Assembly: GCA_947566705.1 (NCBI GenBank)
Contig: CANOLA010000024.1
Coordinates: 1 to 37,526, forward strand
Source of the DNA: an uncultured Lachnospiraceae bacterium
Lineage (GTDB): Bacteria > Bacillota > Clostridia > Lachnospirales > Lachnospiraceae
DNA: 37,526 bases
Direction: 5' to 3'
In this document: piece after piece, positions 2,247-35,497 of the stretch
Layout of the letters: the number at the start of each line of letters is the position of its first letter
How positions within the stretch are numbered: the first letter of the stretch is position 1
Made by a program: the position numbers and the translations under genes
The notes under the pieces: generated by a model
The model's database searches: none
The model's input: the letters and a program-made list of their open reading frames with translations, nothing else
Told to the model about the DNA's origin: nothing

Positions 2247-3065
2247 ATGGCGAGAGAGACAAAATTATTTAAAATCGTGCGTTATATCTTTTTGACGTTA
2301 TCCTGTATCTTTGTGCTGGTTCCGCTGGTATTTATGGCATTTAAGACAGGTGCGGAATATTCTTCGACAGGAGTTTTGGAAGCACCGAAAAGCTGGTTAA
2401 ATTTTTACAACTTCGCCTATGCCATCCGGGTGGGGCATCTGGGAAAGGCATTGGTAAATACCGTGATTATTCTTGGTATTTCCCTGACAATCCAGATACT
2501 GTTTACAACCATGGTTTCCTATGTGCTTCACCGGTTTGACTTCCGTGGAAAGAAACTGATTATGACACTGTTTACACTTACCATGTTTATTCCGGTTGTG
2601 ACGACACAGACGGTTGTATTCCAGATTATTTATAAGCTGGGACTGGTCAGCACACGGCTGAGTGTCATCCTGCTTTATTCAGGAGTCGGGATTGTGGGGA
2701 TTTATATCATGTTTAATATTTTATCATCAATTCCCAAAGACCTGGATGAAGCAGCGCTTTTGGACGGGGCAAGCTATTTCAGCATTTATGGAAAAATCGT
2801 GCTTCCGCTTATGAAGCCGGCATGCACCACCCTGTTAATCTTAAACGGAATCGGAACCTACAATGATTTCTATATTCCGAACCTTTATCTGAGGAAAGAC
2901 GTACAGACATTTACCGTTGCACTGTATAAGTTTTTCGGAAACACGGCAACACCGTTTGAAATCGTGGCGGCAGCCATTTTACTTGGAATTATACCAATAG
3001 GAATTGTCTTTCTGTTTTTACAGAAGTACATTTATTACGGTCTTGCAGGAGCAGTAAAATCATGA
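2247..3065 (+). CDS. Sugar ABC transporter permease (MalG/UgpE-like, CUT1)
   Basis: 272-aa second permease of the transporter, partner of the gene ending 2 nt upstream. The start is set by GGAGG at 2236-2240. Hydrophobic segments cover residues 10-30, 70-95, 105-130, 140-160, 185-205 and 240-262. The ATPase-docking EAA loop is seen as DEAALLDGAS with the conserved P of the following VLP. The stop overlaps the ATG of the DUF624 gene (ATGA, 3062-3065), indicating translational coupling. Confidence 0.93.
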   Translation: MARETKLFKIVRYIFLTLSCIFVLVPLVFMAFKTGAEYSSTGVLEAPKSWLNFYNFAYAIRVGHLGKALVNTVIILGISLTIQILFTTMVSYVLHRFDFRGKKLIMTLFTLTMFIPVVTTQTVVFQIIYKLGLVSTRLSVILLYSGVGIVGIYIMFNILSSIPKDLDEAALLDGASYFSIYGKIVLPLMKPACTTLLILNGIGTYNDFYIPNLYLRKDVQTFTVALYKFFGNTATPFEIVAAAILLGIIPIGIVFLFLQKYIYYGLAGAVKS

Positions 3066-3699
3066 TAAAAAAATCGGTTTTTACAAAATTTTATCGGCGG
3101 TACATATCGTATTCTTCACAAGTATCCTCTGCTTCGGGATTATATTTTTATCAGGCTCACTGCTTATGATTCCGTCACTATGCGCAGCTTTTCACATTGG
3201 AAAAGCTGCGATGTATGACGGGCTGGATATTACAGACAGCATTGTTCTTACGTTCCTGCGGTATTTTAAAAAATCCCTGGGGCTGGAGCGGTTTGTACCG
3301 GTTAATTTCATTATGCTTTTAAATCTTGCCGGAATGTATTTTGCGGCGGATGCAGGGTTTACTCCTGCATGCCTGGTGATTTTTTCGATGCTTCTGACAC
3401 TGTGTCTGTATATTGCCGGATACGCTGTTTTTGTAGATGACAAATTCCGGCTGGAGGAAGCAGCAGTTGCAATGTTAGTAAAGCCGCTGTCTGTTTTATC
3501 CATATTTACGGCAATGCTGCTTTTAACCTGTTTCTTTTCAGGTATGATTGCAGCAGTACTGGTGCTGATGGGAACGTTCTTTTTGTTCGTGGCGGAGCTG
3601 GTCATATTTCTGACAATGCTGAAGTACCGCCAGATGTCAGGGCAGCTTGATGAAGGGGATAAATTTGCCTATATGCTTGACAGGAGAAGCGATAAATAA
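3062..3699 (+). CDS. DUF624 (YesL-like) membrane protein, start and body in different frames
   Basis: DUF624 proteins are small polytopic membrane proteins found inside CUT1 sugar operons; their function is unknown. ATG 3062 overlaps the previous stop (ATGA) as operon neighbours do, but its frame stops after about 35 codons. The DUF624 reading frame is the next one over: from nt 3064 it encodes an N-terminal helix (about VHIVFF to LLMIPSL) and at least three more. The first ATG in that frame (3166) would remove the first helix. A -1 shift at the A7 run (3066-3072) joins them into a normal start, MIKKIGFYK. This repeats the arrangement of the binding-protein gene. Family call is good; whether the product is made is uncertain. 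Confidence 0.75.
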
Positions 3700-3711: not shown

Positions 3712-4737
3712 ATGAGTAAAGTAAGAATTATTGGAAACGATGCAGCGGATATGCCATGGCAGGAGCGTCCGGCAGAAAACAGGACAAACCTGCCATTGTG
3801 GCGGTACAAGGAAAACCCGATTATTGGAAGGAATCCCATTGATGGGGTTGCACGTATTTTTAACAGTGCAGTAATACCATACGAGGGAGCCTATATTGGT
3901 GTTTTCCGTGGGGAACAGACAAACGGAATTTCCTTTATTTATCTGGGAAGAAGTAAAGACGGCATTCACTGGGATTTTGAAAAGGATAAAATACGGTTTG
4001 TGGATGAAGATGGAAATGAATTTATGCCGCGTTATGCATATGCCCCACGGCTGGTAAAACTGGAAGACACCTATTATATCATATGGTGCCAGGATTTCTA
4101 CGGGGCGGCAATCGGTATGGCTAAGACAAAGGATTTTAAGACATTTACCAGAATTGAAAATCCGTTTCTTCCATTTAACAGGAATGCAGTTCTGTTTCCG
4201 CGTAAGGTGAATGGAAAATACCTGATGCTGTCACGGCCGAGCGACAGCGGACATACACCGTTCGGTGATATTTTCCTGTCAGAAAGTCCTGACCTTATGT
4301 ACTGGGGCAGGCACCGCCATGTAATGGGAAAAGGCTCTGAGTGGTGGGAAAGTTTAAAAATCGGAGGCGGCGCAGCGCCGATTGAGACTTCCGAGGGCTG
4401 GCTTCTTTTTTACCATGGAGTGAGCGGAACCTGCAACGGTTATGTATACAGTATCGGCGGTGCAATTCTGGATATTGATAACCCGTCCGTGGTAAAGTAC
4501 CGGTGCGAAACATTTCTTATGACGCCGGAGGAATGGTATGAGGAACGCGGCTTTGTGCCGAATGTAACATTTCCGTGCGCGACTATCGAGGACGCGGCAA
4601 GCGGAAGGATTGCCATATATTATGGAGCGGCGGATTCCTATGTGGGCCTTGCCTTTACAAGGATCGACGAGGTGGTTTCCTATATTAAGGAACACAGCGT
4701 TCTCACAGAGGAAGACACGGAAACCGGAAAAAGATAA
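3712..4737 (+). CDS. GH130 family beta-mannoside phosphorylase-like protein with catalytic Asp replaced
   Basis: 341 aa, typical of short GH130_2-like enzymes, which phosphorolyse beta-1,4-mannosides to mannose-1-phosphate in the cytoplasm. Recognisable blocks include IFNSAV near the start, PFLPFNRN and LFPRK in the middle, LSRPSD with GHTPFGD, IETSEGW, VPNVTFPC and the C-terminal YYGAADS. AGGAGG sits 7 nt before the ATG. The family motif YDPR, whose Asp I believe is the general acid, reads YAPR here (Ala111, codon 4042-4044). A single A-to-C change would explain it, so activity is doubtful although the fold seems intact. It sits between transporter genes and a GH1 glucosidase. Confidence 0.85.
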   Translation: MSKVRIIGNDAADMPWQERPAENRTNLPLWRYKENPIIGRNPIDGVARIFNSAVIPYEGAYIGVFRGEQTNGISFIYLGRSKDGIHWDFEKDKIRFVDEDGNEFMPRYAYAPRLVKLEDTYYIIWCQDFYGAAIGMAKTKDFKTFTRIENPFLPFNRNAVLFPRKVNGKYLMLSRPSDSGHTPFGDIFLSESPDLMYWGRHRHVMGKGSEWWESLKIGGGAAPIETSEGWLLFYHGVSGTCNGYVYSIGGAILDIDNPSVVKYRCETFLMTPEEWYEERGFVPNVTFPCATIEDAASGRIAIYYGAADSYVGLAFTRIDEVVSYIKEHSVLTEEDTETGKR

Positions 4738-4764: not shown

Positions 4765-6120
4765 ATGGGATTTCGCAGTGATTTTGTATGGGGAGCTGCC
4801 ACAAGCTCCTACCAGATTGAAGGTTCTGAAAATGGAAGTGGAAAAGGAGAAAATATCTGGGATGTTTTTGTAAGGGAGCCGGGGCGGATTTATGAAGGTC
4901 ATACGGGACTTAAGGCGTGTGACCACTATAACCGTTTCCGTGAAGATGTAAAAATTATGAAAGAAATCGGGCTTCAGGCATACCGTTTTTCCATCGACTG
5001 GACGAGAATCATACCGGAAGGAACCGGGGCAGTGAATGAAGAAGGAATCGCTTTTTACAGTGCGCTTGTTGATGAGCTGCTGGAGAACGGAATTGAGCCT
5101 TATGTGACGCTGTACCACTGGGAGCTGCCTTATGAACTGTATAAGCGCGGCGGCTGGCTGAATCCGCAGATTGCCGACTGGTTTGGGGAATATGCGAAGG
5201 TTGTCGCCGAACGTTTCAGCGACCGGGTAAAATATTTCTTTACGATAAACGAGCCGCAGTGTTTTATCGGACTGGGATTTTTAAGGGCGGATCATGCGCC
5301 GGGAATAAAAGCGCCGTACCGTGATACATTTGAGATGGCGCATAATGTATTACGGGCGCATGGAAAAGCCGTGCAGATGTTAAGACAGTATGGAAAACAG
5401 CCGCTTGTCATCGGCTATGCGCCGACAGCTTCCATGTGTTACCCTGAGAGTGAAAAACCGGAAGATATTGAAGCAGCCAGACAGGTATTCTTTTCCATGC
5501 AGGAAGACGACAGTAACTGGACATGGAATGTGGCATGGTGGTCGGATCCGGTTCTTCTTGGGAAATATCCCGAAGAAGGGCTGCGCAGATATGAAAAATA
5601 TCTTCCCAAAATTACGGATGAGGATATGAAACTGATTTCTGAACCGATTGATATCTATGGTCAGAATATGTATAACGGCAGGTGCATCCGCATGGGAAAA
5701 GAAGGAAAACCGGAAGATGTTAAGAGAAAAGAAGGCAGTCCAAGGACTGCAAATGACTGGCCGGTGACACCGGAATGTATATACTGGGGACCGAAATTTT
5801 TATATGAGCGCTATAAAAAACCAATATATATTACGGAAAACGGAATTTCCTGCCATGACGTGGTTTCCCTCGACGGTAAGGTACATGACCCTGCCAGAAT
5901 TGATTTTCTGGCAAGATATCTGAAACAGCTGGAGAAAGTCTCAGATGAGGCTGATATCCGCGGGTATTTCCGGTGGTCCCTGATGGATAACTTTGAGTGG
6001 ACCAGGGGATATGGCGAACGGTTCGGACTGGTCTATGTGGACTATGAATCCCAGAAGAGAATATTAAAGGATTCTGCATACTGGTACAGGGATGTGATTC
6101 AGGCGCAGACGATTATGTAA
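4765..6120 (+). CDS. GH1 beta-glucosidase
   Basis: 451-aa retaining beta-glycosidase of family GH1, expected to release glucose (or mannose) from imported disaccharides in the cytoplasm. The N-terminal FVWGAATSSYQIEG motif, acid/base in TINEP (Glu163), nucleophile in ITENG (Glu358) and the C-terminal SLMDNFEW block are all present, and length is typical. No signal peptide. A GGTGG Shine-Dalgarno precedes the ATG. The lack of a PTS gene and the presence of an ABC transporter favour an unphosphorylated substrate over a 6-phospho-sugar, but specificity cannot be read from sequence. Confidence 0.93.
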   Translation: MGFRSDFVWGAATSSYQIEGSENGSGKGENIWDVFVREPGRIYEGHTGLKACDHYNRFREDVKIMKEIGLQAYRFSIDWTRIIPEGTGAVNEEGIAFYSALVDELLENGIEPYVTLYHWELPYELYKRGGWLNPQIADWFGEYAKVVAERFSDRVKYFFTINEPQCFIGLGFLRADHAPGIKAPYRDTFEMAHNVLRAHGKAVQMLRQYGKQPLVIGYAPTASMCYPESEKPEDIEAARQVFFSMQEDDSNWTWNVAWWSDPVLLGKYPEEGLRRYEKYLPKITDEDMKLISEPIDIYGQNMYNGRCIRMGKEGKPEDVKRKEGSPRTANDWPVTPECIYWGPKFLYERYKKPIYITENGISCHDVVSLDGKVHDPARIDFLARYLKQLEKVSDEADIRGYFRWSLMDNFEWTRGYGERFGLVYVDYESQKRILKDSAYWYRDVIQAQTIM

Positions 6121-7811: not shown

Positions 7812-8954
7812 ATGGAGCGAATCAGACAGACAATTGGAAAATTAAAAATTGGGGATAAAATTGCGCGTTTTCCGATTATCCAGGGCGGAATGGGAGTTGG
7901 CGTCAGCCGTTCCTCGCTGGCAGGAGCGGTTGCGGCAGCCGGCGGTGTGGGCATTATTTCCACCGCACAGATTGGATATGATGAAGACAACTTTGAACAG
8001 GACCAGGAAGGGTGCAACCTGCGTGCCATCCGAAGGCATATAAAACGTGCGCGTGAAATTGCAACAGATACCCTTGGGAAATGCAGCGGGCTGATTGGCG
8101 TAAATGTCATGGTGGCGTTAAAGCATTACAGGGAGCATGTGAAAGCTGCGGTTTCCGCGGGTGCGGATGTAGTCATCTGCGGAGCAGGACTGCCGCTGGA
8201 TTTACCGGAACTGGTGGAGGGCAGCGATACAAAAATTGCACCGGTAGTTTCCGGCGTGCGCGCCTGCAGGCTGGTTTTACGCCAGTGGGAAAAAAAATAC
8301 CACCGTACAGCTGATTTTATCGTGGTAGAGGGACCTGCTGCAGGAGGCCATCTGGGCTTTCATATGGAAGAACTGGAAAAATTCGGCTATACAGGGGCGG
8401 ACGGACAGCAGGAAAATCCACAGTCCTTTATGGATAAAGAAATCCGAGGGATTATAGCCTTAAAAGAGGAATATGAAAACGAATACCACTGCCATATACC
8501 GGTTATTGCAGGCGGAGGCGTCTACGACCACCAGGATGTGGAACATGCTTTAAGCCTGGGAGCGGAAGGCGTGCAGGTGGCGAGCCGTTTTGTCACGACC
8601 TATGAGTGTGATGCCTCGGACGCCTACAAGCAGGCATACATCGATGCAAAAGAAGAAGATATCCGGATTATCAAAAGTCCGGTGGGACTTCCGGGGAGGG
8701 CGCTGTACAACACCTTTGCCAAAAAAGCGGAAGAGGGTGCATACAGCGTAAAAAAATGTTACCAGTGCCTTGCAAAATGTAATCCGGCAAAAGTGCCGTA
8801 CTGCATCACCAAAGCGCTGGTGGATGCCGTAAAAGGGGACACGGAAAACGGCCTTGTATTCTGCGGGGCGAATGTCGGACGGATTCATGAAATGATGAGC
8901 GTGCAGGAACTGGTAAATGAGCTGGCAGGAGTCACAGCAGCTGAACTGATATAA
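7812..8954 (+). CDS. NAD(P)H-dependent flavin oxidoreductase / nitronate monooxygenase family
   Basis: 380-aa FMN-binding TIM-barrel protein of the NPD family, which includes FabK-like enoyl reductases and nitronate monooxygenases. The N-terminal FPIIQGGMGVGVS, EGPAAGGHLG, VIAGGGVYD and GAEGVQVASRF blocks form the flavin site. Near residues 316-333 a cysteine cluster (CYQC-x3-C-x7-C) may hold a metal or Fe-S centre, as in several clostridial members. ATG 7812 is the first start after an in-frame stop at 7776 and has only a weak ribosome site; the strong AAAGGAG upstream serves a different frame. A role in fatty acid synthesis is not supported, since no fab genes are nearby. Confidence 0.85.
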   Translation: MERIRQTIGKLKIGDKIARFPIIQGGMGVGVSRSSLAGAVAAAGGVGIISTAQIGYDEDNFEQDQEGCNLRAIRRHIKRAREIATDTLGKCSGLIGVNVMVALKHYREHVKAAVSAGADVVICGAGLPLDLPELVEGSDTKIAPVVSGVRACRLVLRQWEKKYHRTADFIVVEGPAAGGHLGFHMEELEKFGYTGADGQQENPQSFMDKEIRGIIALKEEYENEYHCHIPVIAGGGVYDHQDVEHALSLGAEGVQVASRFVTTYECDASDAYKQAYIDAKEEDIRIIKSPVGLPGRALYNTFAKKAEEGAYSVKKCYQCLAKCNPAKVPYCITKALVDAVKGDTENGLVFCGANVGRIHEMMSVQELVNELAGVTAAELI

Positions 8955-20947: not shown

Positions 20948-21430
20948 ATGAAACAAATTCTCGTACTGAGTGATTCTCATGGAAATCTGAATAATATGGT
21001 TTATGCAGCCAAAAGGGAGCAGCCGGATCTGATGATACATCTGGGGGACTGTTTTGCGGATGCACAGAAACTGAAATCCAGGTTTCCGCGGATTCCGCTG
21101 GAGCAGGTGCCGGGCAACTGTGACTGTAACCAGGAGTTTCAGGAGAGGGTGCTTCTGATTGAAGGAAAAAAAGTGTTCATCTGCCACGGGCATACGCGTA
21201 ATGTTAAGGCGGGATATATCACCCTGCAGTATGCGGCGCAGGAGGCGGGAGCGGATATTGCCCTGTTCGGACACACCCACAGGGTGGTTTACGGATGCCA
21301 TAACGGTATTGTATACCTGAATCCGGGCAGCATCGGCGCACCGGGATACGGGATTCCGCCTTCCTACGGAATCCTGGAGATAGATGAAGGAACAGGACAG
21401 ATTGATTATGACATAAAATATATTGAGTGA
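20948..21430 (+). CDS. YfcE/MJ0936-type metallophosphoesterase
   Basis: 160-aa calcineurin-like phosphodiesterase with all metal motifs: SDSHGN, HLGDC, PGNCDC, CHGHT and FGHTH. Length and a closing strand (SYGILEID) are those of the YfcE group, which cleave small phosphodiesters in vitro; the natural substrate is unclear. GGGGCAG with weak spacing precedes the ATG. The aspartokinase gene begins 14 nt after its stop, so they probably share a transcript. Confidence 0.9.
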   Translation: MKQILVLSDSHGNLNNMVYAAKREQPDLMIHLGDCFADAQKLKSRFPRIPLEQVPGNCDCNQEFQERVLLIEGKKVFICHGHTRNVKAGYITLQYAAQEAGADIALFGHTHRVVYGCHNGIVYLNPGSIGAPGYGIPPSYGILEIDEGTGQIDYDIKYIE

Positions 21431-30187: not shown

Positions 30188-31155
30188 AAGAGAAAACTTA
30201 TGAAGAAGAATACAGGATGCTTTCGGGCATTTCACATTACCTGCTGCATTACAAATCAAAACAGGAGGATCCCGTTCTTCTGTTTATCCACGGCGGACCG
30301 GGGCAGTCGGAATCCAGCCTGGCGTATAAGGTGGAGGAGTTTGCCGGACGCAGTTATAATATCGTATATTATGACCAGCGCGGAGCCGGAAAAACATGGC
30401 TGAAAAACAAAAAGGCAAAGCCGGATACCGCATTATTAAAAGAAGATCTTCTGCAGATTGTTATGTACCTGAAAAAGACTTACGGTAAAGAAAAAATAGG
30501 AATTATCGGGCATTCCTGGGGAAGCGTCTTAGGCAGCATGTTTGCACTCGAACATCCGGAGCATACGCTTTTTTATGCCGGCTGCGGGCAGGTCATCAAC
30601 CTCATGGAAAATGAACAGACCGGCTATGCAAAATTAAAGGAAGCCGTGGAAAAGGGCGGCAGCAAAAAGGATTTAAAAAAGCTGGAAAAAATCGGCGAAT
30701 ATCCGGTGGATTATTTTAATCTGGAGGTTTACCGAAAGATGGGAAAAGTCCGCAATCTGCAGGCAAAATACCAGCTTGCAGCGACCTTTGATAAAAGCAT
30801 GATAAAAGTTATCAGAAATTCACCGATTACGGAAGGAAAAGACCTGCTGGCGTTTTTGTCGGGAATGATGGTAAATATGCAGGTTATGAAAGAACTGATG
30901 TCCTTTGATTTAAGGACATACGGCAATAGCTACCAGGTTCCGGTATATTATATACTTGGGGAGAATGACCAGCAGACGCCTGTGGAAATCAGTATGAAGT
31001 ATTTTGACGAAATAAAGGCGCCGGAAAAGAAGCTGTATCTTATCCCAAATGCCGGTCATCTTGCGATGCTTGATAATACCGGGGCTTACAGGGAGGCGGT
31101 GATGGAGATTGTGGGACGGAATGCAGGTGTGCTGTTACATACATCCTGGGAGTGA
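30184..31155 (+). CDS. Alpha/beta hydrolase, prolyl aminopeptidase-like (S33)
   Basis: 323-aa cytoplasmic hydrolase. The HGGPG oxyanion motif, nucleophile elbow GHSWGS, GEND with the acid Asp, and PNAGH with the catalytic His give a complete triad in the arrangement of proline iminopeptidases. The cap region between them (Lys-rich, GGSKKDLKKLEK) sets specificity and is not diagnostic. The start overlaps the TetR stop (ATGA), so it belongs to a small-molecule-inducible operon. Its last 21 nt overlap the convergent ATPase gene. Confidence 0.88.
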   Translation: MKEKTYEEEYRMLSGISHYLLHYKSKQEDPVLLFIHGGPGQSESSLAYKVEEFAGRSYNIVYYDQRGAGKTWLKNKKAKPDTALLKEDLLQIVMYLKKTYGKEKIGIIGHSWGSVLGSMFALEHPEHTLFYAGCGQVINLMENEQTGYAKLKEAVEKGGSKKDLKKLEKIGEYPVDYFNLEVYRKMGKVRNLQAKYQLAATFDKSMIKVIRNSPITEGKDLLAFLSGMMVNMQVMKELMSFDLRTYGNSYQVPVYYILGENDQQTPVEISMKYFDEIKAPEKKLYLIPNAGHLAMLDNTGAYREAVMEIVGRNAGVLLHTSWE

Positions 31156-32244
31156 TATTTTTTCTTTCAGAAACCGTTTCAGAAAAAAGGTCAGGAAGTA
31201 CGGAAACGTATAAAATTTTCCGTTGAACCCAATATTTTTATATCCCAGCTTGATTCCGTACCTGATATCAGAATACTGCTCTTTTTCAATCAGCGAGTTC
31301 AGGGAACGGGTTGCACCGTCTATTGCCTTTACTTCGACCGGAATCAGGGAATTGGCGTCCCGTACAAAAAAGTCCATTTCCACCGTTCCTTTTACATTTT
31401 TGTAATAGAAAAGGGAGTATCCCTGTTTGACCAGCATATCAGCAACAATATTTTCATAAATTGCGCCCTTGTAGGTGTTAAAATTTTTATTTGCGCGCAA
31501 ATCTTCCTGTGCTTCTTCGTCCAGCGAGCCGATTAACAGTCCGGTATCACGGAAATAAAGCTTAAACTGGTCTGGATTATAATTGCCCTTTAACGGAAGT
31601 TCAGGGGTTTCCATACAGTAACAGCGGTTAATCATACCTGCATTGTCCAGCCAGTCCACAGTTCCAACGTATTCGCGTCCCCTTGCACCGTCTGCAACTT
31701 TGGAAATCTGGAATTTTTTATTATCCCGCCCCAGAAAAGCTGGAATTTTGCGAAACACATTATGGATTTTTCCTTTGTCAAGTCCGCCTGCATATTTGGT
31801 AATGTCCTCTTCATAATCCTCTTTAAATCCTACACTGTTGGATTCGATTTGCTGGTAATTAATTCCCATCAGGGAGCCGGAACAGATAACGTCATACCGT
31901 CCGTCCAGATGAAACGGCTTTAAACTGGTTGCACAGTTGGCACAGTCCTGCAGTTCGTCAAAAAAGAAAAGGGTATCGCCTTCCGTAAATGTAAAGGACG
32001 GATTAAGCAGGGAAATATTTTTAAGGATGGTGTCTACCTCGAAGCCGTTGTCAAAAATGGATTTGTACTGCTTTTGCAGGGCAAAATTAATTTCAATTAC
32101 ATTTTTGTAATTTTGCTGTGCAAACTGGCGGATGGACAGGGTTTTCCCAATCTGCCTTGCACCTTTCACAATTAAAGGGAGATGGTCTTTTTTGTTTTTC
32201 CATTCGGTTAAATCATGGTCGATTTTTCTTTTCAGCAGTTCCAT
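31135..32244 (-). CDS. AAA_14/DUF4143 ATPase, internally shortened
   Basis: 369 aa; relatives are around 430-440. An AAA_14 domain carries Walker A GARQIGKT (residues 28-35) and Walker B LFFFDELQ, and the C-terminus keeps the DUF4143 part with YENIVADMLVKQGY, YYKNVKG and EVDFFVRD-like nuclease-fold residues (MDFFVRD, PVEVKA). In relatives, about 70 residues separate the KEDYE and DYEEDI motifs; here they fuse as KEDYEEDI (residues 141-148), as if lost by recombination across a short repeat. These proteins are widespread and of unclear function, often compared with toxin-like or defence ATPases. AGGAGGAATACGG precedes the ATG. Confidence 0.8.
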   Translation of the reverse strand: MELLKRKIDHDLTEWKNKKDHLPLIVKGARQIGKTLSIRQFAQQNYKNVIEINFALQKQYKSIFDNGFEVDTILKNISLLNPSFTFTEGDTLFFFDELQDCANCATSLKPFHLDGRYDVICSGSLMGINYQQIESNSVGFKEDYEEDITKYAGGLDKGKIHNVFRKIPAFLGRDNKKFQISKVADGARGREYVGTVDWLDNAGMINRCYCMETPELPLKGNYNPDQFKLYFRDTGLLIGSLDEEAQEDLRANKNFNTYKGAIYENIVADMLVKQGYSLFYYKNVKGTVEMDFFVRDANSLIPVEVKAIDGATRSLNSLIEKEQYSDIRYGIKLGYKNIGFNGKFYTFPYFLTFFLKRFLKEKISLPGCM

Positions 32245-34958: not shown

Positions 34959-34997
34959 GGTAGCGATTATCTTAACAGACAATCAGCTACCTTTTTT
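34959..34997 (+). terminator. Terminator-like hairpin at the left end of the transposase fragment
   Basis: GGTAGCGATT pairs with AATCAGCTACC across a 12-nt loop (one bulge), then T6. Confidence 0.5.
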
Positions 34998-35497
34998 AGT
35001 CTGGTGCATTTCAGGGTCACGCTTTCCATCGTGATTTTTGTGGATTTTGGTGCTGCAATAAGAGTTGCATCAACCACAGTTCCACCGTGCATGATGAGAA
35101 CTGCTTTATCAAGACGTTCCTTGACATCATTGAATAATTTCTCGCCGAGATTGTTATCTTCAAGAAGATGACGGAAATGGAGTAATGTGGTTGCATCCGG
35201 CACTTGTTCTGTAAGAAAATCCATATGCATAAACGAACGCATGGCACGGCTGTCGTATATTTCATCTTCTATGCCTGCATTCGACAGATTAAACCAGTTC
35301 TGCATAAGGTACATGCGAAGCATAACTTCAATATCTCTTGGTGGACGACCACGTTTCCCAGAAGGATAGCAGGGACGGATCATATCAACCCAATGTTTCC
35401 ACAGGATGATTTCATCCATTGCTTCCGGAAATTCTTCGCGTTTGGTTTTTCTTTTTCTGTTAGAATATTTAATGTCACTAAATGTCTGTTGTTTCAT
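34967..35497 (-). pseudogene. IS5-family transposase, 3'-truncated and frameshifted
   Basis: About 176 aa of an IS5-type DDE transposase: PSGKRGRPPRDIEVMLRMY, NWFNLSNAGIEDEIYDS, VPDATTLLHFRHLLE and VVDATLIAAPKSTK, which holds the first catalytic Asp. A one-base loss after APKSTK (about 35025) shifts the frame; the neighbouring frame continues NHDGKRDPEMHQTKKG as in intact copies. Everything after that, including the other catalytic residues, is missing. Start GGTGCC-ATG region is intact. The right end of the element probably lies near 35555-35572; the left end is lost, so it cannot move itself. Confidence 0.85.

Follow-up and report, generated by a model that had tools for sequence, protein, structure and literature searches.

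Two genes of an operon at the start of a Lachnospiraceae contig, those for its binding protein (SBP) and for a small membrane protein, have probably lost their function recently through separate small slippage-type deletions. We hold this reading, in which the operon would be decaying, with moderate confidence and on the strength of comparisons between related sequences. The window, i.e., the whole stretch of 37,526 nt that was analysed, is contig 24 in a 160-contig draft genome that is 84% complete. Its first 6 kb hold the genes in the order SBP, permease, permease, small membrane protein, GH130, GH1, all on the + strand. The two ABC permeases (permease 1 at 1381–2244 and permease 2 at 2247–3065), the GH130 phosphorylase (3712–4737) and the GH1 beta-glucosidase (4765–6120) have open frames. 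The operon is one for ABC import of sugars, with manno-oligosaccharides as the probable substrate.

Relatives of the operon

We looked for SBP relatives in sets of 194, 392 and 397 genomes and then among the relatives of three of the genomes that had one, in 61 genomes for each. Eight other genomes proved to carry a close SBP gene (G143, G590, G647, G727, G779, G783, G784 and G786), and G365 a more distant relative, at 50%. Seven of the eight, G779 being the exception, carry an intact membrane-protein gene adjoining the permeases, and in these seven the order SBP, permease, permease, membrane protein is intact. Three of them (G783, G784 and G786) are close kin, so that seven of seven amounts to fewer than seven independent cases. 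The start of the G590 SBP gene is cut off; we considered this as a gene break and rejected it, as the contig ends there.

Amino acid identity between the window and its relatives was 70–82% for the SBP (69–86% among the relatives themselves), 47–52% for the membrane protein (39–56%) and 75–81% for GH130, the last being slightly below the 77–84% seen among the relatives. Genomes of the same genus gave weak SBP matches alone, at 29–31% identity in three genomes. A search of the genome contigs with the membrane protein confirmed none of 31 stretches. A GH130 query on the genome contigs returned at least 80 loci, some of which stop short of the region upstream of GH130; in the 80 loci listed, tblastn found no membrane-protein gene and detected distant SBPs (20–28% identity) in 14. 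Searches of plasmids and of viral contigs gave no match, and a literature search, which was not exhaustive, showed no title describing this operon among the papers listed.

Frame break and deletion in the SBP gene

A Shine-Dalgarno (SD) sequence, AGGAGG (267–272), lies 7 nt upstream of ATG 280, and the relatives have an SD and an ATG in the same position. The frame opened by this ATG stops after 13 codons (280–318, stop at 319); its -1 frame stays open as far as 1319. The frame changes at an A7 run (288–294). Run counts cover the seven relatives whose SBP start is readable (G143, G727, G647, G784, G786, G783 and G779) and leave out G365, which is distant, and G590, where the start is absent. 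The same A7 stands in an uninterrupted frame, with a valine codon next, in four of the seven, three of these four being close kin. Near its start the SBP gene would have lost one base, at the end of the A7; the run in the window is as long as in those four relatives, and the lost base may be an A or the next base, which are indistinguishable.

The remaining SBP frame (294–1319) encodes 341 aa, as compared with 478–497 aa in the seven relatives whose gene is complete and 460 aa in the distant G365. The loss is exactly 126 codons in frame against each of the six relatives measured. Its junction lies at 975–992 and is bordered by short imperfect direct repeats coding Tyr-Val-x-x-Asp-Ala (YV-x-x-DA), between which the codons would have been lost; the repeat pattern was not found in the seventh relative, G779 (SBP of 483 aa). 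The best PDB match of the G143 SBP was BlMnBP1, a manno-oligosaccharide-binding protein (6i5v, 6i5w, 6i5r, 6fuv). The 126-codon gap falls within residues 118–399, the part of the G143 SBP that aligns to this solved manno-oligosaccharide binder.

Permease 2 has 272 aa compared with 275 in all nine relatives. By eye, the three missing codons lie near 2319–2330, in a repeated proline-leucine-valine stretch. The four changes in the operon are all deletions relative to the relatives and all lie at runs or repeats. A MutS-deficient mutator was considered and rejected: the mutS gene is intact (C80), and this mutator route therefore fails to explain the deletion cluster.

Frame break in the membrane-protein gene

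ATG 3062 overlaps the stop of permease 2 as ATGA and leads into an A7 run (3067–3073), both of which the initial annotation of this DNA had described correctly. The frame from this ATG ends after 35 codons (3062–3166); in the -1 frame, reading can proceed from 3067 without interruption up to a stop ending at 3699. The annotation placed the break at the A7, in the same geometry as in the SBP gene. Comparison with the relatives argues for another site. Residues 4–6 are Glu-Ser-Leu in all seven intact relatives, followed by Phe-Tyr or Leu-Tyr. The zero frame of the window reads Met-Ile-Lys-Lys-Ser-Val-Phe, past the A7, before it leaves the alignment. At residues 5–6, where all seven have Ser-Leu, the window thus offers Ser-Val in the zero frame and Ile-Gly in the -1 frame, with BLOSUM62 sums of +5 and -6, respectively, identical for each of the seven. 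As the Ser-Val of the zero frame fits Ser-Leu beyond the A7, the loss of one base is most likely to be placed in the T5 run just downstream (3078–3082), with the rest of the gene in the -1 frame at 3083–3699. This placement is likely and not certain, for it depends on two residues and the seven relatives include three that are close kin; a -1 slip at the A7 would likewise yield an open frame. The two breaks probably differ in run type, and the seemingly shared homopolymer pattern dissolves once the relatives are used to locate the frame change. In the seven intact relatives, A runs within the first 36 nt of this gene reach a length of 2–4 at most, so that the heptamer A AAA AAA is absent from the gene start in all of them; this count leaves out the gene remnants in G199 and G779, as well as G365, where the gene was not seen.

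The annotation also had a DUF624 protein continuing in the -1 frame. The open frame bears this out, and the family label does not follow from the searches. The membrane protein had no Pfam or NCBIfam match, and four of its relatives had no DUF624 match in Pfam. In a search with PF04854 (DUF624/YesL) the window locus was not among the matches; of five operon copies in other genomes only that of G143 appeared, and its score of 19.6 bits is below the curated cut-off of 24.2. The protein may be a distant relative of the DUF624 family.

In three other genomes the membrane-protein gene is decayed or was not seen. In G779 a 36-residue match containing stops (E 1.2e-6) lies between permease 2 and GH130 (stretch L134). 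G199 carries a truncated copy of 120 aa with stops downstream (L096, 7149–7511), which has Thr-Ile at residues 5–6 and no permease ORF of at least 120 aa beside it. In G365 no membrane-protein ORF was among the listed ORFs of at least 120 aa, and a search of the 400 nt that surround and follow the end of permease 2 returned nothing better than E 0.8. The G779 remnant keeps an ATGA-type start and one middle stretch. By eye, the letters 5′ of the G199 remnant look like the end of permease 2.

Frequency of similar breaks in the genome

Of 343 genes, 13 have a run of A7 or longer within 36 nt of the called start, which is about double the density in gene interiors, and an A7 near a start is therefore not rare. 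Breaks at starts like the two described here are rarer. The two operon genes are not among these 13, as their called starts fall 3′ of their runs. Further runs noted in the annotation (A8 at 8290 and 21907, A7 at 21166) are present and lie inside open ORFs.

We scanned gene starts for breaks among genes lacking an in-frame start with an SD, which was the case for 63 of the 343, using runs of at least six A or T or at least five G or C. Only in the SBP and membrane-protein genes did an SD and start in another frame lead into an A7, and one weak T6 case was seen besides. The membrane-protein gene was flagged through its A7, its T5 being below the run limit. The count is a lower bound, as six more candidates with runs of 6–7 are found at genes where an in-frame SD start is present too. 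These six came from a looser scan, which set no limit on runs and did not filter on in-frame SDs but required an ATG and an SD of at least 5. It returned 39 rows, of which 35, the six candidates among them, belong to genes with an in-frame SD start as well; the remaining four were the two operon genes and L111 and L114, neither of which has a run above 3.

Gene interiors were covered in two ways. A codon-usage scan of 437.5 kb (the window plus 20 other stretches, each of 20 kb) gave ten frame switches, seven explainable by ordinary gene overlaps and three not; the method finds 34 of 60 simulated interior breaks and is blind at gene starts. We also made comparisons with proteins from 800 kb of G016, a complete genome of the same genus. 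Of 845 G016 ORFs of at least 120 aa, 187 had a match and 85 passed thresholds of 55% identity and 70% coverage. Eighty of these comparisons were intact, four partial and one multi-frame; a gene broken within its first tenth would score as intact. Among the four partial ones, one runs off the end of a stretch and three lack one end. Since few genes in the sampled part of the genome are broken internally, general undercalling of bases is probably not the cause of the two breaks, the scans of gene starts being weaker than those of interiors. The remark in the annotation that undercalling throughout is not obvious is thus borne out for gene interiors and less firmly for gene starts.

Three other genes drew attention by eye. 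An AAA_14/DUF4143 ATPase gene (31135–32244, - strand) lacks about 82 codons in frame between its two domains compared with G017; the gap sits at a repeat coding Asp-Tyr-Glu, and the copies in G033 and G009 are longer too. On another contig, a gene near 10414 of L107 (- strand), which from its motifs we take to be an ABC exporter, seems to have an internal deletion in its ATPase part and a frame change. Finally, a fragment of an IS transposase with a DUF772 domain (34967–35497, - strand) is seemingly frame-shifted near 35040 and lacks the C-terminal part.

Discussion

The reading we prefer is that the operon is decaying. The SBP gene would have lost one base and, in addition, 126 codons, and the membrane-protein gene one base, by ordinary replication slippage, with import abolished as the result. 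From the assembly we infer that the cell itself carries these deletions. Shared decay, one of the explanations offered in the initial annotation, fits the further deletions in the operon, namely the 126 codons of the SBP and the three of permease 2, and the decay or apparent lack of the membrane-protein gene in three other genomes; intact homologues in the same gene order are found in seven genomes. The loss would be tolerated if the operon is accessory, as we call it because the SBP matches in the same genus are weak and the membrane protein has been lost repeatedly. The breaks look recent, since the frames are open without inner stops and identity to the relatives is about that among the relatives. 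Two observations count against decay: both permeases and the GH130 and GH1 genes all still have open frames, and a frame without stops is also what one would expect of a gene still expressed at a low level.

The main rival to decay is assembly error, in which the breaks and the internal deletion arose at runs and where contigs were joined over short repeats, and the operon is really intact. We regard this as improbable, yet as the alternative to be taken most seriously. The genome is a fragmented and incomplete draft with the operon at a contig start, the scans for start breaks are weak, and six run-bearing candidates exist elsewhere. The DUF4143 ATPase gene is a second internal deletion at a short repeat on the same contig, and the L107 gene on another contig seems internally deleted as well, so that assembler joins over short repeats remain a plausible source. 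Against this stands the rarity of interior breaks, with most homologue comparisons intact and three of the ten frame switches left without explanation. A quite different proposal is that run length at the gene starts toggles the operon on and off. That the SBP gene begins with an A7 would suit such phase variation, but we consider it unlikely: the T5 that is the best site for the second break is a short run, the SBP A7 is in frame in four of seven relatives, and a change of one base in run length cannot give back the 126 codons, so that no run change alone yields an intact SBP gene. The phase-variable operon put forward in the annotation is hard to reconcile with this, although phase variation of the membrane-protein gene alone is conceivable.

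Coordinated recoding, in which the ribosome or RNA polymerase slips on A AAA AAA and both proteins are made from the shifted frame, was also put forward there. This heptamer does stand at both starts in the phase that a -1 slip requires, and no stop interrupts the frames downstream. The site is not conserved, however, with a frame change there in none of seven membrane-protein relatives and none of seven SBP relatives with a readable start. Downstream folding was no better than that of shuffled sequences in all four overlapping stretches (z +0.40 to +0.47, in a model that does not include pseudoknots), and an internally deleted SBP would gain little from recoding; we therefore rate this explanation as very unlikely. 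A narrower version, in which both A AAA AAA starts are real slip sites for polymerase or ribosome, by which the shortened SBP and the membrane protein would both be made in small and coupled amounts, seems highly doubtful to us; were it true, the operon would be throttled and not dead. It is just as hard to believe that nothing is broken and that translation simply begins at ATG 294 for the SBP and at ATG 3166 for the membrane protein. All of the remaining SBP frame can indeed be read from ATG 294, and 177 aa of the other gene from ATG 3166, but the strong SD lies 7 nt before ATG 280 and not before 294, the relatives begin at the equivalents of 280 and 3062, and a start at 3166 would forgo some 34 residues that can be aligned to them.

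The significance beyond this genome is small. A functional annotation of the operon's binding protein needs a check of the reads first. The protein resembles BlMnBP1 in that the latter is the best sequence match of its intact G143 relative, and differs in that 126 codons of the region aligned to it are missing from the SBP of the window. Prokaryote gene starts are enriched in poly(A) and poly(T) tracts, according to Orsi et al. (2010; PMC2831843), who also describe the 5′ poly(A) tract of Listeria monocytogenes inlA, in frame as A7 and out of frame as A6, with reversion measured. There, as here, a short A run at a gene start sets the frame; in contrast to inlA, no length variation is known in this operon, and a T run is the best site for the break in its second gene. 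Another close comparison is with frameshift pseudogenes. In the ab initio frame-transition survey of Antonov et al. (2013; PMC3711429), 4010 pseudogene clusters stand against 146 clusters that apparently use recoding. The operon differs from such pseudogenes in having two breaks and a larger deletion and in being seen here in one genome of its species, and it shares with them a one-base frame transition in a gene whose relatives are intact.
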